This document shows, one piece after another, positions 6,830 to 23,702 of a DNA stretch of 25,460 bases; position 1 is the stretch's first letter; each line of letters opens with the position of its first letter. This stretch comes from a virus. The stretch spans positions 1 to 25,460 of the IMG/VR virus record IMGVR_UViG_3300029266_000585; one strand, written 5' to 3'. The notes under the pieces were generated by a model that was not told the origin of the DNA, did no database searches, and was given only the letters and a program-made list of their open reading frames with translations. A program made the translations under genes and the position numbers.

Positions 6830-8470
6830 ATGACATTTAAATGGGCTAACGATGACTCAAGAACATTTCTGAGTAGAGGTTATATTGATGGAAATATGAC
6901 CGTTGAGGAGAGGGTAAGAACAATTGCCCAAACCGCTGAATCAATCCTTGAAATAGAAGGCTTTGGTGACAAATTCTATGACTATATGAGCAAAGGTTAT
7001 TATTCTCTTTCCTCTCCAGTATGGTCAAACTTCGGTACAAAGAAGGGTTTACCTATCTCTTGTAACGGAGTCAAGATTGAAGATAATATGGAATCAATTC
7101 TGCTTAAAGTAGCGGAAGTTGGAATGCAAACTAAAATGGGTGCTGGAACATCTGGTTACTTTGGTGCTTTGCGTTCCCGTGGAGAACCTATTAAATCAGG
7201 TGGCACAGCCGATGGACCAGTTCACTTTATGAACTTAACTGAAACTACAGTAGATGTAGTTGCTCAGGGTAATGTCCGAAGAGGTTCTTTTGCTGGTTAT
7301 CTTGATATTGAATCTCCCGACATTTATGAGTTTCTTGACTGTCGTGAAGAAGGTTCTTCCATTATCAATATGAGTTTAGGCGTTTGTATCGGCGATGATT
7401 GGATGAACTCCATGATTCACGGTGATCAAGAAAAGAGAACACTATGGGCAAGAGTATTGCGCAAGAGACGTGAGAGCGGTTACCCATATCTATTCTTTAA
7501 AGATACTGTAAACAATAATAAACCACAAGTTCTTAAAGATCAAGAGATTCCTATTTGGGCATCTAATCTATGTTCTGAGATTTGTTTACCGTCAAGTGAA
7601 GAATGGTCTTTTGTTTGTAATCTAGCATCTATGAATTGTCTCACGTATGATGAATGGAAAGAGACAGATGCTGTGGAAGTAATGACTTACTTCCTTGATG
7701 CCGTAATGGAAGAATACATTGAAAAGACAGCCGATATTCCGTTTATGAAATCAGCTCATGACTTTGCTTTACATTGGCGTGCACTTGGTCTAGGACAACT
7801 CGGATGGCATTCTTATCTACAAGCAAATAACATTGCATTTGAATCATTTGATGCTCATATGAAAGCTGTTGAGATTAGTAGATTTATTGATGAAAGATCA
7901 CTTATTGCTTCTCAAGAACTAGCTATTGAATATGGTGAGCCAGCTGGTATGTTGGGATATGGAGAACGTAATTTAACAAGAACAGCTGTTGCTCCAACTA
8001 CAAGTTCATCATTTATTCTTGGACAAGTTTCTCCATCTATTGAACCACTAGCATCTAATTACTTTACAAAAGATTTGGCTAAAGGAAAGTTTACTTATCG
8101 TAACCCATATTTGGCCACAGTATTTGAGAAATATGGTAAGGGAGAAGAAACTTGGATGGACGTGTTAAAGCACGGCGGATCAGTACAACACTTAGACTTC
8201 TTGGATGAGCATGAAAAGAATATGTTTAAAACTTTCTCAGAAATATCACCATTAGTTATTGTACAACAAGCTGCAGCAAGACAGAAATATATTGATCAAG
8301 CACAATCTCTTAATATTATGATTGGACCAGATGTGCCAGCTAAAGATGTTAATGCTCTATTAATAGAAGGTTGGAAACTAGGAGTCAAGACATTCTATTA
8401 TCAACGTAGTTCTAATCCTGCTCAAGAGTTGGTTAGAGATATTATGAACTGTGCGAGTTGTGAAGCATAA
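6830..8470 (+). CDS. nrdA: Class I ribonucleotide reductase, large (alpha) subunit
   Basis: A 546-residue catalytic subunit that reduces ribonucleotides to deoxyribonucleotides. Active-site residues: Cys78 (LPISCNG) and Cys263 (FVCNLASMNC) as the redox pair, and Asn246, Cys248 and Glu250 (SNLCSE) as the thiyl-radical site. The radical-transfer tyrosines are Tyr523/Tyr524 (FYYQR). The C-terminal NCASCEA gives the shuttle cysteines 541 and 544. It is much shorter than the 761-residue E. coli enzyme and has no N-terminal ATP-cone, so dATP overall inhibition should be absent. Short, cone-less forms are known from phages. It is in an operon with nrdB. Its stop shares one base with the next ATG (TAATG). 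Confidence 0.95.
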   Translation: MTFKWANDDSRTFLSRGYIDGNMTVEERVRTIAQTAESILEIEGFGDKFYDYMSKGYYSLSSPVWSNFGTKKGLPISCNGVKIEDNMESILLKVAEVGMQTKMGAGTSGYFGALRSRGEPIKSGGTADGPVHFMNLTETTVDVVAQGNVRRGSFAGYLDIESPDIYEFLDCREEGSSIINMSLGVCIGDDWMNSMIHGDQEKRTLWARVLRKRRESGYPYLFFKDTVNNNKPQVLKDQEIPIWASNLCSEICLPSSEEWSFVCNLASMNCLTYDEWKETDAVEVMTYFLDAVMEEYIEKTADIPFMKSAHDFALHWRALGLGQLGWHSYLQANNIAFESFDAHMKAVEISRFIDERSLIASQELAIEYGEPAGMLGYGERNLTRTAVAPTTSSSFILGQVSPSIEPLASNYFTKDLAKGKFTYRNPYLATVFEKYGKGEETWMDVLKHGGSVQHLDFLDEHEKNMFKTFSEISPLVIVQQAAARQKYIDQAQSLNIMIGPDVPAKDVNALLIEGWKLGVKTFYYQRSSNPAQELVRDIMNCASCEA

Positions 8471-8676
8471 TGGCTCGGCATAGTCCCGCGTATGTACGTG
8501 AGAAAATGGCCGAACTAATGGAACCTATTGATCGTCAGATTATGATGACTGATGATCAAGAAGAAATACTTATGTTTGCTTGTACTATGTTGCAACGTGT
8601 AAGAACAATACTAGATAGTCAGATAGGCCCGACTGGTAGAAAACAAATCTTGCAAGATGCTATTGACAAGGATTAA
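8470..8676 (+). CDS. Small phage protein, 68 aa, downstream of nrdA
   Basis: Starts on the last base of the nrdA stop codon, so its translation is coupled to nrdA. The protein (MARHSPAYVREKMAELMEPI..., then DDQEEILMFACTMLQRVRTI and QIGPTGRKQILQDA) should be all helical. The SPAYVRxKMAELMEPIDRQ start is familiar from marine T4-like phages in the same place after nrdA, without known function. A role linked to RNR is possible only by position. Confidence 0.7.
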   Translation: MARHSPAYVREKMAELMEPIDRQIMMTDDQEEILMFACTMLQRVRTILDSQIGPTGRKQILQDAIDKD

Positions 8677-8698
8677 ATGAAAAGAGAACACTAAATGA

Positions 8699-9049
8699 AT
8701 GACGTATTTAGTAACTGATAATTGCATTAAGTGTAAGCACATGGACTGTGTCGAAGTATGTCCAGTAGACTGTTTCTACGAGGGTGAAAATACTTTGGTG
8801 ATTAATCCAGACGAATGTATCGACTGCGGAGTATGTGAACCAGAATGTCCAGTAGATGCAATTGTGGCAGACAACGAATTAGAGGGTGATGAACTTGGAT
8901 ATTGGCTAAAGATTAATACCGATGCATCCGCTATATGGCCAAACATTACATTAGCAAGACCAGAAGACGTTCCAAAGGATGCTGCAGAATGGGATGGCGT
9001 ACCAAACAAGAGAGAACTACTTTCAATGAACCCAGGAAAAGGAGATTAA
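8699..9049 (+). CDS. fdxA: 7Fe ferredoxin, FdxA type
   Basis: A 116-residue ferredoxin. Cysteines 9, 12, 17, 21, 25, 40, 43, 46 and 50 reproduce the Azotobacter-type FdxA spacing, with the [3Fe-4S] site from Cys9/17/50 and the [4Fe-4S] site from Cys21/40/43/46. The N-terminal [19 protein letters not shown] and the long C-terminal arm (about 60-116, with LNPN-type turns and [13 protein letters not shown]) are also typical of the bacterial family. It is a soluble one-electron carrier. It lies in the nrdBA operon, so donation to the RNR metal cofactor or Fe-S enzymes of the host is plausible. The sequence is close to alphaproteobacterial FdxA by memory, suggesting host origin. The ribosome site is weak (AAGAGA, about 12 bases upstream). 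Confidence 0.92.
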
Positions 9050-9295
9050 ATGATTAATACACACGGGTTTGAAGTAGAAGAAAATGAACATGCTGGTGAG
9101 AAAAAAGTCTATGACGATATCGTCCCGAGACCAGTGCTATCTGAATTTGTTCGGTCGTTAAAGAATCAAGCGGGTGAAGAATGGAAGTCCAGATGCACTG
9201 ACCACTATGCTTGGAAAGCTGCCGAACATATTGAATTTCTTGAAAATACAATAAGAAAGTATCAGATAAGTAATGACCCGTTTACAAAACTTTAA
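9050..9295 (+). CDS. Hypothetical protein, 81 aa
   Basis: Begins directly after the ferredoxin stop, with GGAG seven bases before ATG inside the ferredoxin gene end. The protein has an acidic start, then DDIVPRPVLSEFVRSLKNQA, EEWKSRCTDHYAWKAAEHIE and a short C-terminal helix. It looks mainly helical. No family recognised. It overlaps the next gene by 23 bases. Confidence 0.65.
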   Translation: MINTHGFEVEENEHAGEKKVYDDIVPRPVLSEFVRSLKNQAGEEWKSRCTDHYAWKAAEHIEFLENTIRKYQISNDPFTKL

Positions 9296-9476
9296 GGCTT
9301 GGTTCAAACATTTAAAACAAGAAGGTATCAGAATGTATGGTGAAGATCAAAGTGATCTCGCTTGGTATGGAAAATATAACAATATGAATTGTTGTATATG
9401 GGCTTTCCATAATTCCGGCACTCACTTCACTGACGGTACATATTTTAAAAAAGGAAAAAGAATTGAGCAAAAATAA
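9273..9476 (+). CDS. Hypothetical protein, 67 aa
   Basis: Starts within the end of the previous gene. It begins with a basic helix (RLQNFKAWFKHLKQEGIRMY), followed by an aromatic-rich part (DLAWYGKYNNMNCCIWAFHN) and a basic tail. The adjacent cysteines CC in an aromatic setting are notable, but no family is recognised. Overlap at both ends fits the dense style of the region. Confidence 0.6.
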   Translation: MTRLQNFKAWFKHLKQEGIRMYGEDQSDLAWYGKYNNMNCCIWAFHNSGTHFTDGTYFKKGKRIEQK

Positions 9477-9615
9477 AATACATCACTTGGTTTGTCCAGT
9501 ATGTGAATATGAATGTTATGTAGAACCTATCAACGATAAAGATCCGCCCGAACACTGTCCTATGTGTGCTGCTGTAATTTCAATGGAATCAGATGACGAA
9601 GACGATTGGGAATAG
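9463..9615 (+). CDS. Small zinc-ribbon-like protein with TTG start
   Basis: From TTG 9463, with AAGGA about seven bases upstream, to TAG 9613-9615; 50 residues. It has two Cys pairs, CPVC (11-14) and CPMC (about 33-36), flanked by HHLV and EHC, the pattern of a zinc ribbon or rubredoxin-like knuckle, and an acidic tail ESDDEDDWE. There is no ATG near the N-terminus, so TTG is inferred. Small phage zinc ribbons often act as transcription adaptors or are unknown. It overlaps the neighbouring genes slightly. Confidence 0.6.
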   Translation: MSKNKIHHLVCPVCEYECYVEPINDKDPPEHCPMCAAVISMESDDEDDWE

Positions 9616-9632
9616 CCAGTATAGATAATTAC

Positions 9633-10061
9633 ATGTGGATTTATAATGAAAAAGAATTTAAGCCTACACAAGACGATTTACAGTCTTGGGTAGGTTTTGT
9701 GTATCTGATTACTGATACCGCTAACAGTAAAAAGTATATTGGTAAAAAACTATTTTGGTCTACAAGGAGACTAAAACCATTAAAGGGAAAGACACGAAAA
9801 CGGGTTCAAGTTAAAGAATCAGATTGGACGACATATCATGGCTCAAGCGAAGAAGTGAAAGCATTAGTTGAAAACTCTGACCCTTCAAGATGGAAACGTG
9901 AAATAATTAGACTTTGCAAAGTAAAAGGGGAGATGAGTTACTATGAAACTAAAGAACAATTTGATAGACACGTGCTATTTTCTGATGAATATTACAATGA
10001 ATTTATTGGTTGTAAAATTCACTCGCGCCATGTAAAGGGTAAGTGTGATGATCCAATATGA
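9633..10061 (+). CDS. SegE-type GIY-YIG endonuclease-like protein
   Basis: A 142-residue protein from ATG 9633 (a TTG at 9606 would add nine residues; relatives as I recall them begin close to WxYxxKEF, so ATG is preferred). GFVYLITDTANSKKYIGKK (21-39) is the GIY-YIG motif in VYLI...YIG form. ESDW and YYETKEQFDR add the conserved residues of the family, and the C-terminal SDEYYNEFIGCKIHSR is typical. T4 Seg proteins are homing endonucleases with this domain; here no separate DNA-binding region is present, so it may be a freestanding nuclease or a domesticated one. It lies between small genes in the RNR operon. Confidence 0.8.
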   Translation: MWIYNEKEFKPTQDDLQSWVGFVYLITDTANSKKYIGKKLFWSTRRLKPLKGKTRKRVQVKESDWTTYHGSSEEVKALVENSDPSRWKREIIRLCKVKGEMSYYETKEQFDRHVLFSDEYYNEFIGCKIHSRHVKGKCDDPI

Positions 10062-10329
10062 CTGTGGGATTCAAGGCATGGGCCCAGAAGAAATAAAAGA
10101 AGCCAATCGTTTAATGTGGCTTGTCAAAGGACAACTTTGTCCGTTAGAGTACAGTAAAAAAGATATTCACGGTGTATTTCGAGGGTATTTTAAAAGACTT
10201 TGGTGTAACAATGAAAGAGTTGTATATGGTGAAGAAGGATTTGAAGATGCTTGGAACCAAAGACAATGGGCCCAGGAAGCAAAAGAACAAGAAGAAATAG
10301 ATAAAATATGTATCAGATCAATGGATTAG
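10048..10329 (+). CDS. Hypothetical protein, 93 aa
   Basis: Starts at ATG 10048, inside the end of the SegE-like gene; a GTG at 10045 is in frame just before it. The protein contains CGIQGMGPEEIKEANRLMWL, KKDIHGVFRGYFKRLWCNNE and a C-terminal helix rich in Gln/Glu. No known family. It is the last gene before the promoter at 10333. Confidence 0.65.
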   Translation: MIQYDCGIQGMGPEEIKEANRLMWLVKGQLCPLEYSKKDIHGVFRGYFKRLWCNNERVVYGEEGFEDAWNQRQWAQEAKEQEEIDKICIRSMD

Positions 10330-10332
10330 GTG

Positions 10333-10361
10333 TTTACATATACTTTTTTATGTAGTATAAA
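10333..10361 (+). promoter_or_regulatory. Sigma70-like promoter TTTACA-N17-TATAAA
   Basis: TTTACA at 10333-10338 and TATAAA at 10356-10361 with 17 bases between, just after the stop at 10329. The start would be near 10368, about 29 bases before the ATG at 10397. Confidence 0.7.
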
Positions 10362-10396
10362 AGTTATAGCAAAACAACTTAAAGAGAGACAAGAAA

Positions 10397-10828
10397 ATGT
10401 TTGACCTAATCTCAGATCTCCACAAAGAAGTTTACGGATTCCGCCCTACTCAAGATTGGTGGGCTGATTGGAATGCCTCTTCAGATTCCCAGAAAGAAAA
10501 AGTCTGGGATGAATATAATCGTGTTAATGACTTACAGATAGCAGACCTGACCCATAGTGAAGAAACAAACTTGCAGGCTTTTAAATCTAATATTGCAAAG
10601 ATGATGCTTGATTATGACTTGACTAAATTAGATGCCGTCCGTTGGTGGATTGAAGCTGAAGGTTTAAATGAGACTGATCTTCGGTATGGGTCAAGCTACA
10701 TTAACTACCGCAACAGTCTGCCATATCAGAATGATATGAATGAGATTATGGACGAAGCTTGTTCAGATCAATTGCGTGAAACCCAAGCCGCTGAGGAAGC
10801 AGAATATTCAGCTTTACAATACTCTTGA
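10397..10828 (+). CDS. Conserved phage hypothetical protein, 143 aa
   Basis: Begins MFDLISDLHKEVYGFRPTQD and continues with Trp-rich WWADWNASSD, then acidic helices (MMLDYDLTKLDAVRWWIEAE and QLRETQAAEEAEYSAL). The LHKxVYGFRP start is a pattern I have seen in many phages, without assigned function. It has its own promoter 36-64 bases upstream and the -35 box of the next promoter lies inside its last codons. Probably cytoplasmic. Confidence 0.7.
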   Translation: MFDLISDLHKEVYGFRPTQDWWADWNASSDSQKEKVWDEYNRVNDLQIADLTHSEETNLQAFKSNIAKMMLDYDLTKLDAVRWWIEAEGLNETDLRYGSSYINYRNSLPYQNDMNEIMDEACSDQLRETQAAEEAEYSALQYS

Positions 10829-10841
10829 ATTGTGTTATAAT
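10813..10841 (+). promoter_or_regulatory. Sigma70-like promoter TTTACA-N17-TATAAT
   Basis: TTTACA at 10813-10818 lies inside the end of the upstream gene and a perfect TATAAT at 10836-10841 lies after its stop, spacing 17. It should drive the gene at 10862 and the RNase H gene. Confidence 0.75.
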
Positions 10842-10861
10842 AAGATTATAGGAGATACACA

Positions 10862-11017
10862 ATGGAATGGACTATAAAAGCATACCACTGGATAGATGGA
10901 TCCAATCGCATGGTTCAGTGGGCTAGTGGATTAAGTCACTCTCATGCAGCAAAGATGTTTAAACGGCTGCATGATCAGAAAGAATTTGCAATGATAACTA
11001 TGAAAGAAAAGAAATGA
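10862..11017 (+). CDS. Small protein ahead of RNase H, 51 aa
   Basis: ATG 10862 with AGGAGA at 10850-10855, and an ATGA overlap with the RNase H start at 11014. The protein (MEWTIKAYHWIDGSNRMVQW, then ASGLSHSHAAKMFKRLHD and a basic tail) looks like a small alpha/beta fold. Unknown function. A strong ribosome site and a promoter of its own support it as a real gene. Confidence 0.65.
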   Translation: MEWTIKAYHWIDGSNRMVQWASGLSHSHAAKMFKRLHDQKEFAMITMKEKK

Positions 11018-11865
11018 TTTTACTTGATTTTTCAGGCGTGTCTATTGCGCCTATTGCTATGGGAGCTGCTAAGGTAGACGAGCATCTAATTCGTCATATG
11101 GTTCTAAACAGTATTCGTATGTATAAGCAAAAGTTTAAAGAATACGGAGATATGGTTATTGTATGCGATGCTGGTGGTAACTGGCGCAAAGATGAATACC
11201 CAGAATATAAAGGCAATCGTAAAAACTCCAGACAGGAATCAACTATTGACTGGGACGAGGCTTTCCGTATTCTTAATATGGTAAGAGATGAGATTGCCGA
11301 GAACCTTCCATATAAAGTAATCCATCAATGGGGCTGTGAAGCAGATGACTCAATTGCCGAGATTGTTAAATGGACTCAAGAGTTTGGTAACTATGAAGAA
11401 GTTATGATTGTATCAGCTGACCGTGACTTTAAACAGTTGCAGAAGTTTGATAATGTGAAGCAGTATTCTAATATTACTAAAAAGTTTGTTAAAGAACCAA
11501 ATCCACGTTTGTTCTTACAAGAACATATCTTGACTGGCTGCAGTGGTGATGGTGTACCAAATGTTTTATCTGATGACGATACACTAATTAATCCAGATAA
11601 GCGTCAACCACCATTAACTAAAAAGAAGAAAGAAGCGTTACTTGAAGACCCTCGGGCTCTTGGTGATACTGTATATAGAAATTACTGCCGAAACAAGAAG
11701 ATGATTGACTTGACAGAAGAGTCACAGTGTCCAGAAGTAGTAAAAACAGAAATTATAAATACTTTTGAATCACAAGACTTTGTGTCTAAAAAGAGTAAGG
11801 TTTTACCATACTTGATTCAAAAGAGATGTAGATTATTAATTGAATGTGTAGAGGAATTTTTTTAA
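11014..11865 (+). CDS. rnh: T4-type RNase H, 5'-3' FEN-family nuclease
   Basis: A 283-residue member of the FEN-1/5'-nuclease family; T4 RNase H (305 aa) removes RNA primers from lagging-strand fragments. Acidic metal-site motifs: LLDFSG (Asp5), VCDAGGNWRKDEYPEYKGNR (51-70, Asp52 and the basic arch), CEADDSIAE (Glu109, Asp111, Asp112), SADRDFKQL (Asp136, Asp138), and TGCSGDGVPNVL with the helix-hairpin-helix Asp. The C-terminal part has basic stretches (LTKKKKEALLED) for DNA contact. A TATAAATA at 11754-11761 inside it may be chance. Its stop overlaps the next ATG by one base. Confidence 0.92.
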   Translation: MILLDFSGVSIAPIAMGAAKVDEHLIRHMVLNSIRMYKQKFKEYGDMVIVCDAGGNWRKDEYPEYKGNRKNSRQESTIDWDEAFRILNMVRDEIAENLPYKVIHQWGCEADDSIAEIVKWTQEFGNYEEVMIVSADRDFKQLQKFDNVKQYSNITKKFVKEPNPRLFLQEHILTGCSGDGVPNVLSDDDTLINPDKRQPPLTKKKKEALLEDPRALGDTVYRNYCRNKKMIDLTEESQCPEVVKTEIINTFESQDFVSKKSKVLPYLIQKRCRLLIECVEEFF

Positions 11866-12317
11866 TGAAATTGGTTCATGAAGTGTTAGAGCTGTTACAT
11901 AAGCAGCAAACAAAACAAGAAAAAGTCGACGTGCTAAAGTCCAATGAGACTTGGGCACTAAAGGATATATTAAGAGGATCTATTGACAGTACAGTAGAGT
12001 GGGCGGTGCCAGCAGGCCCGCCTCCCTATGTCGCAAATAGACCAGAGTCCACCCCATCAAACTTACTCAAGCAGAATGTAAAATTTAAATATTTTGTAAA
12101 GGGTGGACAATACGAGAATATGAAACAGGTAAAGCGTGAGAAACTCTTTATTGAAGTGCTTGAGTCAATTCACCCTAAAGATGCAGCATTAGTTGTCAAT
12201 ATGGTCTCTAAGCCTGAGGCTAAGGGAGGATGGTATGATCTGGGTTCCTGCAAAATTACTAGACCTATGATTAATGAAGCCTTTCCCGATTTGCTGCAAG
12301 ATAACAATAAGGAATGA
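11865..12317 (+). CDS. Conserved phage protein, DUF6433-like, 150 aa
   Basis: Starts at ATG 11865 on the last base of the RNase H stop, with GAGGA at 11851-11855. Pattern: MKLVHEVLELLHKQQTKQEK, LKSNETWALKDILRGSIDST, VEWAVPAGPPPYVANRPEST, KFKYFVKGGQYE and LFIEVLESIHPKDAALVVNM. The WALKDILR...VxW.LPxGxPPY...LxxE.LHPxDAxLV layout is a common phage family; the DUF6433 name is from memory. Function unknown, but in T4-like marine phages it commonly sits with replication genes. Confidence 0.75.
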   Translation: MKLVHEVLELLHKQQTKQEKVDVLKSNETWALKDILRGSIDSTVEWAVPAGPPPYVANRPESTPSNLLKQNVKFKYFVKGGQYENMKQVKREKLFIEVLESIHPKDAALVVNMVSKPEAKGGWYDLGSCKITRPMINEAFPDLLQDNNKE

Positions 12318-12324
12318 CAAATAC

Positions 12325-12498
12325 ATGGTATCAGCTCAAATTGAAAGATTGAAAAAAGATTCAAGGGAACTAAGTCAGTACTCAAGAAAATTAGAGAAAA
12401 AAGGAAGACACGATTTGAAACACAAAATTGACGTAAAACAAGATTACTTAGATCAAGTCATTGCTGATATCGAGGAACAAAAGAATACTTTTAATTAA
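12325..12498 (+). CDS. Small coiled-coil protein, 57 aa
   Basis: ATG 12325 with AAGGA at 12309-12313; longer in-frame starts exist upstream (12274) but lie within the previous gene and lack a ribosome site. The protein is one long charged helix (QIERLKKDSRELSQYSRKLE, then KHKIDVKQDYLDQVIADIEE), probably a coiled coil. No family recognised. Confidence 0.6.
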   Translation: MVSAQIERLKKDSRELSQYSRKLEKKGRHDLKHKIDVKQDYLDQVIADIEEQKNTFN

Positions 12499-12501
12499 GG
12501 G

Positions 12502-12530
12502 TTTACAATCAACATTATAGCTGATATAGT
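12502..12530 (+). promoter_or_regulatory. Sigma70-like promoter TTTACA-N17-TATAGT
   Basis: TTTACA at 12502-12507, TATAGT at 12525-12530, spacing 17, in the 62-base gap before the gene at 12561. Same -35 and spacing as the other four sites. Confidence 0.7.
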
Positions 12531-12560
12531 TAATTTAACAAAACAGCAACAGGTGAAAAC

Positions 12561-13124
12561 ATGAATATATTTGTATTAGATAATAACCCTATAAAAGCAG
12601 CACAACTGCAGTGCGATAAGCACGTAGTAAAAATGATCGTGGAGAGTGCACAGATGCTCTCCACGGCTCATCGTATGCTAGATGGTATAGAAACCAAAAA
12701 GTTGTCTAAATCAGGCAAACGTATGGTAAAATATTGGACTATGGAAAACGAGCTGAAAGAAAATACTTTGTACAAGGCAGTTCACTTTGCTCATCCTTGT
12801 ACTGTATGGACTATGGAATCAGTCCAAAATTACATCTGGCACTACGATCACTTTGATGCTCTTTGCATCGAGTACACATATCGCTACCGAAAAGTTCACG
12901 CAACTCAAACCAAGCTTGCAGATATGTTATCTATTCCCCCACGTAATTTGCCATCGGTAGGTCTTACTCCATTCCGTATGGCTATGCAACACCAACCACA
13001 GTGTATCAACGAGGCTGATCCAGTACAGTCTTACAAAGATTATTATCAGACCAAGCAAGAGAATTTCAAAATGGCTTGGACTGGTCGTAATGTCCCGGAG
13101 TGGTTTAATGTGGCAGCAGCCTGA
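12561..13124 (+). CDS. Conserved phage protein with CDKHVVKM motif, 187 aa
   Basis: The protein starts MNIFVLDNNPIKAAQLQCDK and has the HVVKMIVESAQMLSTAHRML helix, a central HPCTVWTMESVQNYIWHYDH, and NLPSVGLTPFRMAMQHQPQC. It ends with YKDYYQTKQE and VPEWF. I know this family from many T4-like and other phages, where it is mostly annotated as hypothetical. The conserved Cys, Asp and His residues look like an active or metal site, but I cannot name an activity. It is first in an operon that continues to PhoH and the exonuclease, so a DNA-related role is possible. Confidence 0.8.
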   Translation: MNIFVLDNNPIKAAQLQCDKHVVKMIVESAQMLSTAHRMLDGIETKKLSKSGKRMVKYWTMENELKENTLYKAVHFAHPCTVWTMESVQNYIWHYDHFDALCIEYTYRYRKVHATQTKLADMLSIPPRNLPSVGLTPFRMAMQHQPQCINEADPVQSYKDYYQTKQENFKMAWTGRNVPEWFNVAAA

Positions 13125-16704: not shown

Positions 16705-17490
16705 ATGAAGAGATTAATATATCAGGTTTATGTCGGTAAGCGATCTAAACTATATGATCACTGTGTAAAGTCAGTACAGGATTATTGTGAGAAAAATGGA
16801 ATTGATTATCATATCCAAACTCAACCAAAGCTGAGAATCACGCCTGATGTTTTCTCTACAAATCGTAGCCCGGAGTCCTATGGACGTCTGGGCTACTTGC
16901 CTATTTATGAGAAAGAAAATGCTTTTGAATACTTAGATAAGTATGATCAAGTTGCAATCATTGATTCAGATGTTTATATTAGACCAGACGCACCTAATGT
17001 ATTTGATACAATAAGTAAAGATGTTGATTTTGCAGGTGTTCTTGAAAAAGAAATGCCTGTTACTAACGAATACTTGCGTAAAATTATGAATTATTCAAGA
17101 ATGCAATACGCACAACCAAAGACCCTACATAACTTAATGGACTGGAGCAATGGGTGTGCTGATTTCTATAATATGGGAATTATGATCTTGAATAAATCTA
17201 TCGATAGGTTTATCTTTCCAGATAGTCCATTATCATTTATTAGACGACCACTGTTTAAACCTTTTGTAGATGGTCTTGGAGCATGGAAGTGGTCTACAGA
17301 TCAGACATTACTAAATTTCTGGGTAAAGAGAACCAATATGAAAGTTCAAAACTTATCTTATAAATGGAATGGTTTATATTCTGCAATACCAAAAGATAAG
17401 ATTGAACAAGCACATTTTGTACACTTTTTCTTAAAAGATAAATTACCAGAACGTGGTGAGAATGTCACGGAGTTAATGAAGAATGTCTAA
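16705..17490 (+). CDS. GT-A glycosyltransferase 1 (GT8-like)
   Basis: A 261-residue glycosyltransferase-like protein. It begins with a beta strand LIYQVYVG, has a DxD metal/nucleotide-sugar motif at Asp87-Ser-Asp89 (VAIIDSDVYIRPD), a WSNGCADFYNMGIMILN acceptor-site region, WSTDQTLLNFW with the conserved Asp-Gln, and a late HFVHFF His. This is the GT8/glycogenin type layout. The sugar and acceptor are unknown. It is the first of three paralogous genes with overlapping ends; it overlaps the next gene by eight bases. Confidence 0.85.
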   Translation: MKRLIYQVYVGKRSKLYDHCVKSVQDYCEKNGIDYHIQTQPKLRITPDVFSTNRSPESYGRLGYLPIYEKENAFEYLDKYDQVAIIDSDVYIRPDAPNVFDTISKDVDFAGVLEKEMPVTNEYLRKIMNYSRMQYAQPKTLHNLMDWSNGCADFYNMGIMILNKSIDRFIFPDSPLSFIRRPLFKPFVDGLGAWKWSTDQTLLNFWVKRTNMKVQNLSYKWNGLYSAIPKDKIEQAHFVHFFLKDKLPERGENVTELMKNV

Positions 17491-18160
17491 AAATATTATC
17501 CTACAACACTTTGATGGTGAGTTAAGAGAACTCGACAAACTATCAATGGAAAATATTAAAGTATATGCAGAGAGTGTTGGCGCAGATTATCAGTTGGTTA
17601 CAGGAAAGCCATTTAGAGAACATTTAACATCTCCGTGTCAAAAAGTATTTATGATAGATGAGAAATGGGACGAATACGACCAGGTTTTAATGTTAGACAT
17701 TGATATGTTTGCAACTAAAAAGTGTCCAGATATATTTACAACTGAAAAAGGTATTGGTCTTTATAATCCTATACAACAGGGTTTGCATAGAAAGATTGTA
17801 AATCAATACGGAATGCAATCATCCAGAGCGGCTCCATATTGGGGCGGCGCAATCTATAAAATACATAAACATATGCGCCAGAGTTTTCGTAAATGTTTAG
17901 GTGGAAACGAACAGTGGATGAATGCATATAATCAACCTTATCACTTTGAAGATGAAGGAATCTTTCATACTCTTGCTATGAGAGCAGGCATTGGTTATAT
18001 TCCTACAATGAATATGGATCCACGTTGGTGTTATGATAACTATCTGCCCGAACCAGAGAGTGCATATATGATACACATTAGAACTAAAATTGCACCAAAT
18101 GGACCGAAACAAGAAAAGATTAAAAACTACCAAGAAATGGTTAAACGAGGTGTATTATGA
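17483..18160 (+). CDS. GT-A glycosyltransferase 2
   Basis: A 225-residue paralogue of its neighbours: IILQHFDGELRELDKLSMEN at the start, VGADYQLVTGKPF, DxD at Asp72-Ile-Asp74 (VLMLDIDMF), YWGGAIYKIHK, HFEDEGIFHTLA as the catalytic/acceptor segment, and MIHIRTK at the end with the metal-binding His. A GGAG ribosome site lies in the end of the previous gene. ATG of the next gene overlaps its stop (ATGA). Confidence 0.82.
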   Translation: MSKNIILQHFDGELRELDKLSMENIKVYAESVGADYQLVTGKPFREHLTSPCQKVFMIDEKWDEYDQVLMLDIDMFATKKCPDIFTTEKGIGLYNPIQQGLHRKIVNQYGMQSSRAAPYWGGAIYKIHKHMRQSFRKCLGGNEQWMNAYNQPYHFEDEGIFHTLAMRAGIGYIPTMNMDPRWCYDNYLPEPESAYMIHIRTKIAPNGPKQEKIKNYQEMVKRGVL

Positions 18161-18957
18161 AAAACCTAATCTATCAAGTTTGGGCTGGTGAATTAAGACC
18201 AGGCTGTAAACACTCATCTAAACTTATGAAAGCCTATGCCGATAGAATTGGTGCAGACTATAGACTAGACATTGATCCAAACATTGCTTCGGCAGTATGT
18301 GATGTGCCAATGTATTTTGAATGGTTGAATCCTATGCTTGACGATTCCTTTTTAGACTATGATAATGTTCTAGTCGTGGACTTAGATGTATTTCCGACAA
18401 CTAACTGTAGAAATATATTTGAAGAGGCTTACTTGGACGTTGGTATTTGCACTGAACCATTTCAAGGTAGATATAGAGCGTCTACAATTATTGGTGGGCA
18501 CATAGGAATAGTTAACGAAGAAAAGTGGTTTACATCTGTCCAAAAACAGTATAATATAAATCTACCGAGAGATGCCGATGGTTATCTTAAAGTGTATAAT
18601 GCTGGAATGGTTCTATTCTCTAATAAAGGTTTACAGAAATGTAGAGAAAAGTTTGAAACTTTCCAGAAATATATTAACTATATGAGAACACAAAAACTAG
18701 GAAGATTTTATACTGTAGACCAAAATTACTTTCATGTAATGATGTGTCAACATTTAGATTATACCGAGATGAGTAACGAATGGAATTGCTATATACACTA
18801 TACAAGGGGTCCTCTTGGACTAACAGAGCCTATTCATGATGGCAGAGGAACCGACCCGCAGTTTGTACACATACAACTATCGGGAGCAGACTTTTTTAAA
18901 GATAAACAACTCGACCTAATTACCAATTCAACACAGGAACATTGGGGTTTAAAGTAA
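18157..18957 (+). CDS. GT-A glycosyltransferase 3
   Basis: A 266-residue third paralogue. It starts KNLIYQVWAGELRPGCKHSS and IGADYRLDIDP, closely like genes 1 and 2, with DxD at Asp75-Leu-Asp77 (VVDLDVFP). It also has IIGGHIGIV, VYNAGMVLFS, FYTVDQNYFHVMM and FVHIQLSG near the end. It belongs to the same GT8-like group. Three diverged copies in a row suggest successive sugars on one glycan, or different acceptors. A TTTACA/TATAAT pair inside (spacing 15) was judged chance. Confidence 0.83.
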   Translation: MKNLIYQVWAGELRPGCKHSSKLMKAYADRIGADYRLDIDPNIASAVCDVPMYFEWLNPMLDDSFLDYDNVLVVDLDVFPTTNCRNIFEEAYLDVGICTEPFQGRYRASTIIGGHIGIVNEEKWFTSVQKQYNINLPRDADGYLKVYNAGMVLFSNKGLQKCREKFETFQKYINYMRTQKLGRFYTVDQNYFHVMMCQHLDYTEMSNEWNCYIHYTRGPLGLTEPIHDGRGTDPQFVHIQLSGADFFKDKQLDLITNSTQEHWGLK

Positions 18958-18958
18958 C

Positions 18959-19684
18959 GTGGACGGATGGGAACTATTTAGAAAAAGGATACACCAAGAA
19001 TGGCAGGGCTGTTCTGATTTTTTAAGATGCCGATATGTAAAGCAATGCTTGCATCCATCTGAAATGGGAGTAGCTAATAATGTATATAATGAATTGTATG
19101 ACACGATTATACATGTCGATCACGAGTATGGTAATCCAAGGAGACAAGTAGGAGGCAATAGTTCTGTTAATTTACAACATCACTATTATGTAGCCATGAT
19201 AAAGAAGTTTTTTGGATCTATTAGTTTTACCCATGTACTGGACATTGGTGGCGGGTATGGTAACCAGTATAGAGTTTTTAATAAAATGGGATTTCTTGGG
19301 GCATGGGAAATAGCAGACTTTCCAGAGATGCTTGAGATACAAAAAGATTTTATAGGTAAAACTTGTGTAAATCCTTTTGTAACATATAGCTCACTACATA
19401 ATTGTTGGCACGATAGAGCAAAGCAATTATTACTTGCAACATTTAGTCTTAATGAAATGCCACTAGAGGACAGAAAAGTTGTTGAGAAAAATATTAGAAA
19501 ATATTCACATATTTTTATAACACATAACCATGAATTTGAGGGTATAGATAACTATGAATATTTCAGAAAATTAAAGGGTAGACTTCGCAAAGAATATGAT
19601 ATAAAACACTTTAAAGATCCTTTATATAAATCAGCATGGTTTTGGATAGCAACTAGGAAAATAAATGGCAACCCAGTTACATAA
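18959..19684 (+). CDS. SAM-dependent methyltransferase (putative sugar O-methyltransferase)
   Basis: GTG start one base after the previous stop; no better ATG lies near it, so the exact N-terminus is uncertain. It has a class I methyltransferase motif at 92-101 (HVLDIGGGYG), an acidic strand end (AWEIADFPEM), and ATFSLNEMP as post-motif region. The size and ELYD...SVNLQHHYYVA context recall putative sugar O-methyltransferases found with glycosyltransferases. Position directly after three glycosyltransferases supports a glycan substrate. Confidence 0.75.
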   Translation: MDGWELFRKRIHQEWQGCSDFLRCRYVKQCLHPSEMGVANNVYNELYDTIIHVDHEYGNPRRQVGGNSSVNLQHHYYVAMIKKFFGSISFTHVLDIGGGYGNQYRVFNKMGFLGAWEIADFPEMLEIQKDFIGKTCVNPFVTYSSLHNCWHDRAKQLLLATFSLNEMPLEDRKVVEKNIRKYSHIFITHNHEFEGIDNYEYFRKLKGRLRKEYDIKHFKDPLYKSAWFWIATRKINGNPVT

Positions 19685-19814
19685 TAATGAAGATCCGACA
19701 AGACTCGAACTAACCAAAATGTTTAATAAGATGAAACTAGAATATCATATCAAGAGTGACGTAGACGGACTTTTAAACGTATATTTTATAGTTAAGCCAG
19801 AAAGCAAGAAATAA
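19665..19814 (+). CDS. Small protein between the two methyltransferases, 49 aa
   Basis: ATG 19665 with AGGA about eight bases upstream, ending at TAA 19812-19814 directly before the next ATG. The protein is MATQLHNNEDPTRLELTKMF, then KMKLEYHIKSDVDGLLNVYF and a short tail: a helix followed by a beta hairpin. Unknown. It fills the gap exactly, which supports it. Confidence 0.55.
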   Translation: MATQLHNNEDPTRLELTKMFNKMKLEYHIKSDVDGLLNVYFIVKPESKK

Positions 19815-20387
19815 ATGATTAATGTAGATTTGAGCCACGTGAAAAGCGTAGCAGAGTTTTATAAAGATATAAGAGCAGGGCAAGAAGCAGAACACGGAAA
19901 AGATTATTGTGCACAACATGACGCAATTAGAAAGTATTTTAAACTCGGTTATGGTTGTACTTCCTATAAAGAATTAGGAGTACATCAAGGCGGTACCGCA
20001 GCAAATGCTATGTTGATGGGTGCAAAGTATATTGATCTTGTAGATATTAGTATGGTCAAATACAATAAGTATCTAAGGCCACTGGCTGCTCAGTATTGTA
20101 AAGATAATGATATTGAACTTGTAGTTAAAGAGGCTGACTCAACTGGTCTTGGTTCTATTGGAAAAGCAGTAGATATGATGCTAATTGATTCAGTACACAA
20201 ATGGTTCCATACCGAAAAAGAATTAACTCTCCACGCCAATAATGTAAAAAAGTATATTGTGTTTCACGATACTGCAACCTGTCATGATATTGCTACTGGA
20301 CTTGAACATTGGTGTGAGACTAAGCCGTGGAAGATTATTGAAATCGGAAAAGCAAACGTAGGCTACACAGTAATAGAAAGAATGTAA
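19815..20387 (+). CDS. Class I methyltransferase, CmcI/Methyltransf_24-like
   Basis: A 190-residue protein. YKELGVHQGGTAANAML (51-67) is motif I, where an ELG.xxG replaces the usual DxGxGxG. DLVDIS marks the second strand and MMLIDSVHKWFHTEKEL holds the Asp/His seen in CmcI- and Methyltransf_24-type enzymes. YIVFHDTATCHD is the late strand with the metal-binding HD. These enzymes often methylate sugars or glycan ends. It is in the glycosyltransferase cassette. Its stop overlaps the next ATG by one base. Confidence 0.8.
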   Translation: MINVDLSHVKSVAEFYKDIRAGQEAEHGKDYCAQHDAIRKYFKLGYGCTSYKELGVHQGGTAANAMLMGAKYIDLVDISMVKYNKYLRPLAAQYCKDNDIELVVKEADSTGLGSIGKAVDMMLIDSVHKWFHTEKELTLHANNVKKYIVFHDTATCHDIATGLEHWCETKPWKIIEIGKANVGYTVIERM

Positions 20388-20614
20388 TGTTTACTGTAGA
20401 ACACGAATTTGACTACACTAGTGTTACTATTTTGGATAATGAAGCCAGATCTGACGATGTGGAATTAATCTTTGATGATGAATATGTTTACATAAGACAG
20501 TATGACGATGAAGGTGATTTCAACATTGTCGTGATCACAAATTCTCAGTTTGAAGAAATGATTGCATCTTATTGTAGCCCTGAGGGTGCTTTCATGACAA
20601 GGGATAAATCATGA
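20387..20614 (+). CDS. Small acidic conserved phage protein, 75 aa
   Basis: TAATG start. The sequence alternates beta strands with acidic turns (EHEFDYTSVTILDNEARSDD, VELIFDDEYVYIRQYDDEGD, NIVVITNSQFEEMI) and ends in SPEGAF. A similar FTVEF...VxLxDxxxxDDVExI...VxIRQ pattern occurs in many T4-like marine phages, function unknown. It overlaps the next gene by ATGA. It is probably a general phage gene separating the two glycan-related parts. Confidence 0.7.
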   Translation: MFTVEHEFDYTSVTILDNEARSDDVELIFDDEYVYIRQYDDEGDFNIVVITNSQFEEMIASYCSPEGAFMTRDKS

Positions 20615-21303
20615 CTGCTCATATTATAACAATCCAAGGTCATCCTATATCAGAAAATGCCGCCCATGAGTGTATAAAGTCCTCTTGGAGTAGAAATAAT
20701 GAATTTAAATGTAAATCGTTTAAGGCAACCACACCTGGAGAAGCAGAACAAGAGTTAGCAGATTTCAAACTTAAATGGAATTACCCGTGGGAAGGATCAA
20801 TAATAGACCTTGAGACTGGACTCACAAAGTCTGCATATAAAACTAGAAATCAGCTTGCTCGTGTAGCATGTGCATTGAGTCACTTTAGACTATGGGTCCA
20901 ATGTTTTGAAACAAGAGAACCAATTATAGTATGTGAGCATGATGCTATTTGGACCAATAAACTTCCATTACAAAAACTATTAGAGAATAGGTTCCATATT
21001 ATCGGAATCAATAACCCTCTCGGCGCAACACGTAGGTCGAGACAATACCACGATGCGATCCAGTCATCATTAGCAGAAGTACAAGAAGTGCCATGGATAG
21101 ATGAAAAGAATATCCCTCAGGGGTTAGCTGGTAATTCAGCATATATCCTAAAGCCAGAAGGTGCTGAAGCATTAATATCGGCCGCATATAGATATGGGTT
21201 GTGGCCCAATGATGCACTGATGTGTAAACAGTTAATAAGATACTTAGGCGTGACACGCACGTTTTACACAGGACTACAGAAAACCCTATCAACAACTACT
21301 TAA
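20611..21303 (+). CDS. Glycosyltransferase family 25-like (LPS-type)
   Basis: A 230-residue protein. VACALSHFRLW (86-96) and the acidic EHDAIW (109-114, the EDDA motif of GT25 with His in the second place) are the family hallmarks. GLAGNSAYILKPEGAEALI and WPNDALM are the later GT25 motifs. GT25 enzymes act on lipooligosaccharide or procollagen hydroxylysine sugars. Together with the three GT8-like genes and two methyltransferases it makes up the cassette. Ends 22 bases before the BMP gene. Confidence 0.8.
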   Translation: MTAHIITIQGHPISENAAHECIKSSWSRNNEFKCKSFKATTPGEAEQELADFKLKWNYPWEGSIIDLETGLTKSAYKTRNQLARVACALSHFRLWVQCFETREPIIVCEHDAIWTNKLPLQKLLENRFHIIGINNPLGATRRSRQYHDAIQSSLAEVQEVPWIDEKNIPQGLAGNSAYILKPEGAEALISAAYRYGLWPNDALMCKQLIRYLGVTRTFYTGLQKTLSTTT

Positions 21304-21325
21304 TAGAAAGAGAACATATAATAAA

Positions 21326-22384
21326 ATGATTAGAGTTTTAACAATCGTAGCAGCGGCCATGTTAGCAACAAGCGCATGGGCTGGGGATAAAGTTAAAGTA
21401 GGTTTCATTTACGTTGGACCAACTGGAGATCATGGTTGGACTTATCGTCATGATATCGGCCGTCAAGACGTTGAAGCACATTTTGGAGATCAAGTAGAAA
21501 CATTTTATGTCGAAAGTGTTGCAGAAGGACCCGATGCTGAAAGAGTTATTCGTGGTATGGTTATGCGAGGCGCTGATATTGTATTTACTACTTCCTTTGG
21601 TTACATGGAAGCAACAGCTAAACTCGCAGCTCAGTATCCCGATGTAAAGTTTGAGCATGCAACTGGTTATAAACGGTCTGCAAATATGTCTAGTTATGCA
21701 CTCCGTTTGTATCAAGCACGTCACATTCAAGGTGTGATTGCGGGTCTTATGACTAAAAGCAATAAGATTTGTTATATCGGAGCATATCCAATCCCAGAAG
21801 TTATTCGTCACATCAACACATATTTTATGGGCGCTCGAAGTGTAAACCCTGATGTTGATATGGATATTATTTGGGTAAACACTTGGTATAACCCTGGTAA
21901 AGAATCAGACGCAGCTAAAGTTCTAATGGCACAGGGTTGTGACATGGTAGCACAACATACTGACTCACCTGCTCCCATTCAGGCGGCTGAGCAACAAGGT
22001 AAATTTGCATTTGGCCAAGCATCGGATCAAATTAGATTTGCACCAGCAGCACAGCTAACTGCAACTATTGATAATTGGTCTCCTTACTACATTCGCAAGG
22101 TCCAAGCTGTTATCGATGGTAACTGGGAAAGTGAAAACTATTTCGGTGGAGTAGCAGGCGGCGGAGTTGTTATGGCTCCATTTACTAATATGCCTGATGA
22201 AGTACGTGCTCAAGCAGCTGATCTTTTACAGCAGATTAGTGACGGAGAGTATTTTGCCTTTACTGGACCCATCAAAGATCAAGCTGGAGTGATTAGGATT
22301 CCAGAAGGTCATGTGGCTACAGATATGGAACTAAATAGTATGGATTATTATGTCGAAGGTATTTCGGCAAAGTTTCCTCTGTAA
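21326..22384 (+). CDS. BMP-family ABC transporter substrate-binding protein (PnrA/Med-like)
   Basis: A 352-residue secreted protein: signal peptide 1-19 (MIRVLTIVAAAMLATSAWA), then a type I periplasmic-binding fold. Family landmarks: KVKVGFIYVGPTGDHGWTYR, VESVAEGPDAERVIRGMVMR, IVFTTSFGYMEAT, YPDVKFEHATGY, IGAYPIPEVIRHINTYFMGA, VNTWYNPGKESDAA, QHTDSPAPIQAAEQ, and GPIKDQAGVIRIPEG. In bacteria these proteins bind nucleosides or purines for an ABC importer. No permease or ATPase lies here, so it must use the host's transporter or bind ligand alone. Length is complete and no frame is broken. A strong terminator follows. Probably acquired from a proteobacterial host. Confidence 0.9.
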   Translation: MIRVLTIVAAAMLATSAWAGDKVKVGFIYVGPTGDHGWTYRHDIGRQDVEAHFGDQVETFYVESVAEGPDAERVIRGMVMRGADIVFTTSFGYMEATAKLAAQYPDVKFEHATGYKRSANMSSYALRLYQARHIQGVIAGLMTKSNKICYIGAYPIPEVIRHINTYFMGARSVNPDVDMDIIWVNTWYNPGKESDAAKVLMAQGCDMVAQHTDSPAPIQAAEQQGKFAFGQASDQIRFAPAAQLTATIDNWSPYYIRKVQAVIDGNWESENYFGGVAGGGVVMAPFTNMPDEVRAQAADLLQQISDGEYFAFTGPIKDQAGVIRIPEGHVATDMELNSMDYYVEGISAKFPL

Positions 22385-22392
22385 AAATATTA

Positions 22393-22418
22393 GGGGGGCA
22401 GTTATCTGCCTCCCTTTC
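22393..22418 (+). terminator. Rho-independent terminator after the BMP gene
   Basis: GGGGGGCAG (22393-22401), loop TTAT, CTGCCTCCC (22406-22414), then TTTC. The stem has nine pairs with one G-U. It is the only clearly GC-rich terminator seen in the window and isolates the BMP gene from the next one. Confidence 0.8.
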
Positions 22419-22440
22419 ACCACCTAATAAGAGAATTATT

Positions 22441-23286
22441 ATGATTGATAAAATTTATATACCAACTGCCTGTAGAGTTGATAAGCAAATAACATATAAT
22501 AACTTACCAAAAGAGTTGCAAGATAAAGTTGTGTTTGTTGTACAAGAGTGGGAAAGGGATCAGTATACACTTGATGCCGAGTACCTGGTACTTCCACCAG
22601 AGATTACACTTACTTCTAAAAATGCTTTGTCACGTACTCGTAAGATTATCTATGAGACTGCTAAAGATACCCGTTATGCAATGCTAGATGATGATATGCA
22701 TTTCCAACGTAGGAATTCAAAGTATTGGAACGGTGTTTCTAATATGGAGAAATCATGCCAGAAATGTACTGATGATGATATTATTGAAATGTTTGAATTA
22801 TTTGATAGTTGGTTAGATCAAGGTTTTACTTTTTGTGGTCCAGCTCAAAAGAATAATCCACCCACAGGAAATTTATACCAAGATAATTGTTCTATGTCTG
22901 GCTTCTATGTATTTAATGGATATGATTGGAAAGACATAATTGATGATCTAAAGGTAGATCAAGTAAGAGTTGCAGAGGATGTTCTACTTATCATAGGACT
23001 ATTAAACCGTGGGTATTCTAATCGTACAAGCCAAGAGTTTATTCAAAGCAATCAGAGTTATGCTTCTAAGTCGGAGAAATCAGTCCTTTGGGATAAAACC
23101 GAAGTTGCTGAAGTCAATGAGAATCATATTTTTATTAATAGTATGTACCCAAAATATTTTAAAATTTTACGTGATGAAAAAGGTGATAGGATACCAGGCG
23201 GCTTCAGAGACGTTGGTAAAACCAAAATTAGCTGGAGTCAAGCCTATAAGGACTCCCAACACAATTCTTTATCGGAGTTCTTTTAA
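22441..23286 (+). CDS. TET-associated-type glycosyltransferase (GT-A fold)
   Basis: A 281-residue protein starting IDKIYIPTACRVDKQITYNN and LPKELQDKVVFVVQEWERDQ, which resembles the start of phage TET/JBP-associated glycosyltransferases (IYIPSRGRxxxQxTxxxLP). It has a DxD-type motif at Asp83-85 (AMLDDDMHFQRRN), NALSRTRKII before it, CGPAQKNNPP, NCSMSGFYVFNG and RVAEDVLLIIGLLNRGY as acceptor side. In phages such enzymes are predicted to glucosylate modified DNA bases; no TET or base-modifying partner is in the window, so a glycan role is also possible. Its stop overlaps the ATT start of the next gene. Confidence 0.7.
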   Translation: MIDKIYIPTACRVDKQITYNNLPKELQDKVVFVVQEWERDQYTLDAEYLVLPPEITLTSKNALSRTRKIIYETAKDTRYAMLDDDMHFQRRNSKYWNGVSNMEKSCQKCTDDDIIEMFELFDSWLDQGFTFCGPAQKNNPPTGNLYQDNCSMSGFYVFNGYDWKDIIDDLKVDQVRVAEDVLLIIGLLNRGYSNRTSQEFIQSNQSYASKSEKSVLWDKTEVAEVNENHIFINSMYPKYFKILRDEKGDRIPGGFRDVGKTKISWSQAYKDSQHNSLSEFF

Positions 23287-23702
23287 TTACACATTTATTT
23301 CAAAAGTTTGAGTTTACAAGCCACGCAGGTCTTCCCCTGACATGGAAAATTGAATGCGATGCTATTGCACCAGAAGAGTGGATATGCCTTGCTATGATGA
23401 TTAGGGAAATGGAACCACAAAATTGGCAGAAAGCAGTTGGCATCCCACGTGGAGGTGTTGAACTAGGAAAGGCACTAGATGCATATAGTACAGGTGTTTC
23501 AACAGATCCTGTTCTAGTAGCTGATGACGTTTATACAACAGGTATGAGTCAAAAAGAATATAAAGAGGAACATTATCCAAATCAAGCAACTCTACACTGG
23601 GTAGTATTCTCTCGTGAACCAACAGTCGGTAGAGTTAAATCACTTTTCACAATGCCTAATAGGGCTAAACACAAATCTACAATACCCGCAATATACCAGT
23701 AA
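23286..23702 (+). CDS. Phosphoribosyltransferase with probable ATT start
   Basis: A 138-residue PRTase. The PRPP-binding motif is VLVADDVYTTG, preceded by AVGIPRGGVELGKALDAY, as in phage and bacterial PRTases that join a base to PRPP. The N-terminal FTSHAGLPLTWKIECDAIAP followed by EEW matches the conserved start of phage relatives and lies upstream of the first ATG (23394). That frame is open back to 23250 but has no ATG, GTG or TTG. An ATT at 23286 overlaps the previous stop (TAATT) and has GGAG eight bases upstream. The ATG at 23394 would delete the conserved N-terminus. Substrate unknown; purine salvage is plausible. Confidence 0.72.
   Translation: MTHLFQKFEFTSHAGLPLTWKIECDAIAPEEWICLAMMIREMEPQNWQKAVGIPRGGVELGKALDAYSTGVSTDPVLVADDVYTTGMSQKEYKEEHYPNQATLHWVVFSREPTVGRVKSLFTMPNRAKHKSTIPAIYQ

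Follow-up and report, generated by a model that had tools for sequence, protein, structure and literature searches.

What a phage might do with a periplasmic substrate-binding protein, and which ligand such a protein would capture, are the questions raised by a BMP/PnrA-family gene in a 25,460-base IMG/VR virus record, a genome fragment that we refer to, at its full length, as the window. Its genes are phage-like and include PhoH, ribonucleotide reductase (RNR) subunits, exonucleases and glycosyltransferases. We consider it probable that the protein captures purine bases in the periplasm for a host permease, feeding the phage nucleotide pools. This reading draws on the protein family, predicted fold, pocket residues, leader-like N-terminus, phage context, selection, permease absence and gene linkage, from which we infer the ligand, export, delivery to the host permease, timing and benefit to the phage.

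The BMP gene is an intact, full-length reading frame (Table 1), whose product matched the Pfam Bmp profile PF02608 over positions 1–290 of 301 with 163.5 bits (cut-off 24.1), in line with the complete, signal peptide-bearing BMP-family binding protein of the initial annotation. Read by eye, its leader (MIRVLTIVAAAMLATSAWA before the predicted cleavage point, G after it) follows the Sec signal peptidase I pattern without a lipobox Cys, and the BMP proteins of relatives start with similar leaders. The only NCBIfam model matched was that of a putative vitamin B6 binder (NF047927), at 51.4 bits against a cut-off of 400, and PHROGs yielded no family for the window protein. An AlphaFold2 model, built from a 26-row alignment of the window and locus proteins, had a mean pLDDT of 90.8 and the two-lobed periplasmic-binding fold (TM 0.90 to 3S99), its low-confidence end comprising most of residues 1–18. 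Codon comparison with the closely related locus L002 indicated purifying selection on the gene (dN 0.053, dS 0.413, dN/dS 0.13).

Table 1. Features at and around the BMP gene, in window coordinates.
Feature	Coordinates	Strand	Remarks
Glycosyltransferase family 25 (GT25) gene	20611..21303	+	22 bp upstream of BMP, co-oriented; Pfam
BMP/PnrA-family substrate-binding protein gene	21326..22384	+	352 aa, ATG to TAA; AtzT/3S99 (purine-base) branch
Putative Sec-type leader	21326..21382	+	Residues 1–19; predicted cleavage after AWA; no lipobox; by eye
Predicted ligand pocket span	21437..21964	+	Contacts W38, S90, F91, E158, W187, H211, D213; second shell H162; from AtzT mapping
Hairpin, possibly a weak intrinsic terminator	22392..22415	+	Just 3' of the BMP stop codon
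TAGT/HMC-glucosyltransferase-like gene	22441..23286	+	Occupies the place of the 2OG oxygenase in L021, L049, L059
Short PRTase-like ORF	23394..23702	+	Open frame reaches 23337; motifs GIPRGG and PVLVADDVYTTG read by eye

The hairpin after the stop codon has 10 bp, and the 71-nt stretch containing it folds at −22.2 kcal/mol (z −3.4). The gene had been credited with a strong terminator of its own; the hairpin is indeed present, but its T-tract is poor (CCCTTTCACC), which makes it weak in the window, where a terminator scan did not call it. Since L002 and L051 carry a similar hairpin ending in TTTTT, and L003 a different hairpin with TTTTT at the same place, a terminator role is nonetheless plausible. 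Scanning 54 distinct regions upstream of BMP genes for NATAAATA, which we take to be the T4-type late promoter motif, gave one occurrence (L054) and none in the window.

The gene lies in a bona fide phage genome. L002 (a 151-kb record) and L051 (43 kb) are near-copies of each other whose BMP proteins are 91% identical to that of the window, and all 15 window genes tested keep their order in both, 12 at 91–100% amino acid identity and three at 70–87%. The T4-type major capsid gene gp23 is present in the record of L002, for which reason we call the window phage T4-like, and is absent from the window record itself. A join to a host contig, which would have undone the initial annotation, is excluded, as both flanks of the gene are kept in L002 and L051. 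Mislabelling of bacterial contigs as viral, considered as a general reading, was likewise rejected given the absence of a BMP-type permease from all 82 records searched, many of them fragments, the finding of gp23 in five of 50 viral records, and the T4-type neighbours in viral loci, namely lysozyme (by Pfam) and polymerase-like and clamp-loader-like ORFs (by eye). Within the window, the BMP gene sits in a glycosyltransferase cluster, away from the RNR genes, and GT25 relatives also precede BMP in L002–L007, L009–L011 and L051. The run of glycosyltransferase-like and methyltransferase-like genes around BMP extends over 16705–23286, several of them named by eye, GT25 and TAGT by Pfam, and one HMC-glucosyltransferase-like gene by PHROGs. 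Behind the RNR genes, at 8699–9049, lies a small ORF that looks ferredoxin-like by eye, having two motifs of the CxxCxxCxxxC type.

As to the ligand, a PDB sequence search returned 3S99 as the best match (E 5.7e-121), then AtzT (E 1.1e-97), the next reaching only 9.7e-21. The AlphaFold2 model gave the same ranking: base binders came first (3S99, TM 0.90, 54% identity; AtzT, TM 0.90–0.91, 44–45%), with fold and length alike, and nucleoside binders were more distant (guanosine-bound Lbp, TM 0.77, 24%; nucleoside-bound PnrA and BmpD, 0.72–0.74, 15–16%). In the available text of PMC6834077, AtzT from Pseudomonas sp. ADP is described as binding guanine at 0.11 μM (110 nM), adenine at 2.5 μM and pyrimidine bases at 620 μM or more weakly, and adenine is modelled in 3S99, a Brucella basic membrane lipoprotein. 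All eight residues of the AtzT guanine site named there could be mapped onto the window chain without conflict, and the base-sandwiching aromatics, Ser/Phe-N, Glu and the polar pair of that site are present in the window protein. At the seven contact positions, the window protein is identical to 3S99 throughout, whereas AtzT differs at three, with Tyr45, Asn218 and Asn220 in place of W38, H211 and D213 of the phage protein. The seven contacts are invariant in all 81 viral copies compared (window included) and in the six SAR116-type rows (L082–L087). In 74 other cellular rows they are almost invariant (F91 and W187 each in 73), the deviating rows being L090, which contains unknown bases, and L126.

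Given the 44–54% identity and the same pocket, against 15–24% for nucleoside binders, the evidence from sequence and model points to a free purine base (the 3S99/AtzT branch) rather than a nucleoside. Of the 'nucleoside or purine' initially proposed as ligand, the purine type is thus likely and the nucleoside disfavoured, the nearest structures and pocket being those of base binders. That the protein works as a nucleoside binder in the manner of PnrA/BmpD seems to us decidedly improbable: it shares their Pfam family, and guanosine-bound Lbp, PnrA and BmpD are among its structural matches, but at the lower identities just given and with the base-binder contacts conserved. Variation is found in the second shell, where position 162 (Asn169 in AtzT, Gly in 3S99) is Glu in 78 of 81 viral and all six SAR116-type rows but in just three of the 74 other cellular rows (L088–L090), the remaining 71 having Gly. 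His occurs only in the window, L002 and L051, and with H162 replacing Glu the ligand of the window lineage may differ.

The initial annotation also described the gene as lacking its transporter, and this agrees with what we found: no BPD_transp_2 permease occurred in 50 viral records (window included) or in 32 more, many of them fragments, and a complete BMP-type ABC importer in the same element was seen in none of these 82. AtzT differs here, as its gene lies within an ABC-transporter operon according to the accessible part of PMC6834077, and the phage gene does not. In L042, the stretch separating BMP from the oxygenase (9176–12634) contains genes for a binding protein of NMT1/THI5 type, a BPD_transp_1 permease, an arylsulfotransferase-like protein and, named by eye, an ABC ATPase. 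Together they look like a second, complete ABC importer carried by a phage contig, and a phosphoribosyltransferase (PRTase) gene lies further on. More generally, ABC transporters are reported as common among genes of marine Proteobacteria viruses, with a suggested aid to nutrient uptake and nucleotide synthesis, in the portion of PMC5504273 at hand.

One could imagine a non-nutritional surface or periplasmic role, for example keeping other phages out by occupying a host permease or receptor, for which the glycosyltransferase surroundings of the window gene and the absence of a permease from the phage records searched might be cited. A role independent of binding would not, however, call for contacts that never vary among the 81 viral copies compared, and the gene is linked to those of enzymes, so that we regard such a role as very improbable.

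Further phage copies, whose search the initial annotation had advised, proved numerous. Searched with the window protein, IMG/VR yielded 240 stretches that encode relatives, and the analysis covers the best 80. The 80 loci of each scan are the best of 240 (BMP), 222 (oxygenase) and 141 (cellular) and hence biased to close relatives; many are near-copies, and the two viral sets overlap. Among 50,697 GenBank phages, from which records very near the window genome were possibly excluded, no BMP or oxygenase exceeded 40% identity: 12 records, all unannotated human faecal 'Bacteriophage sp.', had a distant BMP (best 38.8%), and there was one 25% match to the oxygenase. Among the matches listed in open-licence PMC for SAR116 phages, purines, salvage and binding proteins of phages, we saw no paper that dealt with a phage BMP, alone or together with an oxygenase, and the available portions of PMC11360552, PMC5332604 and PMC3861242 hold nothing on phage BMP.

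In most relatives the BMP gene has a partner, a 286-aa 2-oxoglutarate (2OG) oxygenase, usually on its 3' side, which was found in 76 of the best 80 loci by tblastn and in 74 by clustering of ORFs called with a simple longest-ORF rule. It lies within 4 kb in 76 of the 78 loci having sequence beyond the BMP gene, directly adjoining it in 70 and 0.9–3.7 kb on in six; the four loci lacking it are L002 and L051, where the sequence continues for 8 kb, and L008 and L022, where it stops within 13 bases. The linkage also holds in the reverse direction, since the oxygenase profile retrieved 222 stretches, and 77 of the best 80 contained BMP, immediately upstream in 76 and at 3.5 kb in L197. Of the other three, L231 offers about 650 bases of upstream sequence and L234 5 kb, both without BMP, and L191 only about 100 bases before the oxygenase, so that presence of BMP there is not judgeable. 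At the level of whole records, the oxygenase is present in nine of 12 and absent from those of the window, L002 and L051, which therefore lack the BMP–2OG pair: the window lineage is an exception to the pairing. Very large viral records with the pair include L027 (328 kb, with gp23 in the record) and L194 (316 kb).

The oxygenase has the Pfam domains DIOX_N and 2OG-FeII_Oxy, and its best PDB match, of modest similarity, is thymine-7-hydroxylase (E 1.5e-28), a fungal 2OG oxygenase of free bases. When its residues were compared, through a phmmer alignment, with those named in the accessible part of PMC4787775, iron ligands and 2OG contacts were kept except for one L to I change. Four of the six base contacts are shared (N87, R190, Y217 and F292), whereas E122 is replaced by N and N294 by D in eight of eight sequences. 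These residues suggest that the partner, missing in the window record, is plausibly a free-base or N-heterocycle oxygenase.

Other genes occur around the pair. GTP cyclohydrolase I (FolE) homologues, starting about 1.8–4.7 kb before the BMP end, lie upstream in 11 of 80 loci (L018–L024, L027, L029, L042, L049); that of L018 matched in Pfam and fell below the cut-offs in NCBIfam. A 7-deazaguanine route was considered for these loci and rejected, QueC exceeding its cut-off in one of 20 records, through a 55-residue stretch, and falling below it in one more. A stand-alone class II synthetase-like protein (L003 9655–10473 and relatives), tRNA-synt_2 by Pfam and AsnA/AsnRS/LysRS-like below NCBI cut-offs, lies near the pair in 25 of 80 BMP and 35 of 80 oxygenase loci.

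Salvage enzymes form a further part of the neighbourhood. An adenine phosphoribosyltransferase (APRT) homologue was found in 30 of 80 BMP loci, 3–142 bp behind the oxygenase in 27 of these, and the one member scanned (L014) passed two NCBI cut-offs (171.5 against 170, and 163.3 against 125). L067, L072 and L073, three loci with identical BMPs, have a PRTase of a second type upstream of that gene. Searching with PF00156 revealed a phosphoribosyltransferase in 11 of 22 viral records, all outside the window's clade, and none in the eight records of that clade (the window and its seven closest). In the window, the short PRTase-like ORF (Table 1) had no Pfam match; profile comparison matched it to the second, PF00156-type PRTase cluster with 95.7% probability and more weakly to APRT (23.9%, E 8e-4), three unrelated control clusters giving 0.2–0.4%. 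Homologues of this ORF follow BMP at 864–881 bp in L021, L049 and L059, with the oxygenase in between, and at 907 bp in L002 and L051, with the TAGT glycosyltransferase in between. A salvage partner of the window's own is thus weakly suggested by the profile match of this ORF.

These associations raise a special case that is compatible with purine-base capture, in which the E162 BMP would import a methylated or otherwise N-substituted purine, the 2OG oxygenase would strip or oxidise the substituent, and APRT or xanthine phosphoribosyltransferase (XPRT) would capture the base; the H162 lineage without oxygenase would then have gone back to plain bases or to another ligand. Such salvage of modified bases is possible, if on balance doubtful. 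The linkage is near-complete both ways (76 of 78 BMP loci; 77 of 80 oxygenase loci, adjacent in 76), most base contacts of thymine-7-hydroxylase are kept in the oxygenase along with the ligands of iron and 2OG, APRT follows the oxygenase in many phages and XPRT in the SAR116 locus L082, and H162 is confined to the three records without oxygenase. All 68 of the 76 BMP matches at oxygenase-found loci that cover the position have E162, in a set that overlaps the first viral set. Some purine N-demethylases are Rieske enzymes, and L088, which has E162 and no 2OG oxygenase in its locus, carries Rieske/VanA_C demethylase-type genes after BMP. Against this, the substrate of thymine-7-hydroxylase is a pyrimidine and the similarity to it modest, the locus of L090, which has E162, shows neither type of oxygenase, and the coincidence of H162 with oxygenase absence counts as a single event because the three records form one lineage.

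The closest cellular BMPs, found by a scan of 84,980 species genomes that reaches close relatives only (141 stretches, best 80 used), are those of SAR116, at 68–69% identity. Five SAR116 rows and L087, from a genome of the same order, have the BMP–2OG pair, the same two adjacent genes as in phages, and in the order to which the L082 genome belongs the oxygenase was found at E 1e-60 in six of 136 genomes, the same six. In the place where many phages have APRT, the SAR116 pair is followed by XPRT in L082 (242 bits against a cut-off of 138), by hydantoinase A and B in L084 (Pfam), with the same two clusters in L085, and in L083 by a GuaD-like amidohydrolase that was below all NCBI cut-offs shown. 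Each of the five SAR116 genomes has two BMP genes, and two permeases adjoin the other one and none the phage-like one (contigs and positions by eye). Over the 80 cellular loci, BMP occurs with a permease-type cluster in 50 and an ATPase-type cluster in 44, and a search of the L088, L089 and L122 genomes confirmed PF02653 beside BMP. ORFs named by eye comprise amidohydrolase/guanine-deaminase-like (21 loci), XdhB (18), XdhC (18), adenosine/adenine-deaminase-like (13) and PuuD-like (eight). In the Rhodobacteraceae locus L088, XdhB-, XdhC-, ATPase- and permease-type ORFs precede BMP, and the Rieske and VanA_C genes directly after it (7257–8866) might serve the same purpose as the 2OG oxygenase in phages.

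Neighbours of this kind could also speak for a supply of nitrogen or carbon, with the base degraded for ammonia and the oxygenase starting ring catabolism. Hydantoinase A/B after the pair in L084/L085, the amidohydrolase in L083, the purine-catabolic-looking genes often near cellular relatives and the AsnA/AsnRS-like gene in the neighbourhood of the viral pair (25 of 80 BMP and 35 of 80 oxygenase loci) would fit; yet the nameable viral neighbours are phosphoribosyltransferases, FolE, lysozyme and similar, and in the viral clusters that were inspected, without a family-level search, we came across neither a deaminase nor a xanthine dehydrogenase. We judge this supply role unlikely.

The phylogeny with cellular BMPs that the initial annotation had called for placed SAR116 copies inside the viral rows. 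In unrooted trees of 160 and 53 rows, whose root was not inferred, viral, SAR116, L087 and Rhodobacteraceae L088/L089 rows form one group apart from other cells (support 100 in the 160-row and 100/100 in the 53-row tree), and L082, L085 and L086 of SAR116 fall among viral rows, with support of 95/86 and 97/94 on the enclosing branches and 89/93 on the nearest. The smaller tree held 36 of 81 viral rows (the others being at least 95% alike in a crude end-anchored comparison), four of six SAR116-type rows (L082, L085, L086, L087) and 13 of the 73 remaining cellular rows, namely L088, L089 and 11 chosen by hand; L090 was omitted from both on account of its unknown bases. The AU test rejected a single clade of viral copies (p 0.0033), a group that we had defined once the first tree was known. 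Because SAR116 rows nest in viral rows and the viral clade is rejected, BMP genes would, under these trees, have moved between phages and cells more than once, phage-to-cell transfer into SAR116 being the simplest reading, though not a proven one.

Under the preferred reading of purine-base capture, the BMP protein would be made during infection and secreted to the periplasm, where it would capture a free purine base of adenine or guanine type, or a close derivative. The base would pass to the BMP-type ABC permease of the host, import continuing while host expression is shut down, and phosphoribosyltransferases (host-made, and phage-made in many relatives) would turn it into a nucleotide, which, with the phage RNR whose genes are in the window, would enter phage DNA synthesis. 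In most relatives examined, the neighbouring 2OG oxygenase would act on the imported base before salvage. More tentatively, SAR116/Roseobacter-type phages might carry a mobile import–oxidise–salvage module for (modified) purine bases, made up of a periplasmic base binder with an acidic second-shell residue, a free-base 2OG oxygenase and an adenine phosphoribosyltransferase. Such a module would have a long viral history of its own, and cellular copies would nest within the viral ones; the window lineage would have lost the oxygenase and retuned the pocket.

PnuC is an integral-membrane transporter. The PnuC/NadR system for NAD salvage in KVP40-type vibriophages likewise comprises phage genes for nucleotide-precursor uptake and salvage, but its substrate is another one and no periplasmic binding protein is named in the available part of PMC3468402. 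Cyanophage PstS, invoked from the outset as a precedent, is an apt one in being a phage binding protein without its permease, for a ligand, phosphate, that differs from ours: host-derived, it is thought to use the host PstABC, as we propose for BMP and the host permease, and of 18 cyanophages at low phosphate the 17 without pstS showed delayed lysis and the one with pstS did not (accessible text of PMC10976474). Ligand class and hosts differ between the two, and it is the relatives of BMP that are tied to an oxygenase and phosphoribosyltransferases.

The idea of a phage binding protein is known, and the proposed ligand class and the gene association appear to be new. Phage binding proteins have so far been thought to use a host transporter for phosphate; if the reading proposed here is true, infected cells would draw DNA building blocks from outside, beyond their intracellular stock, and the link to BMP would offer a testable substrate for a group of 2OG oxygenases common to phages and some SAR116 cells.
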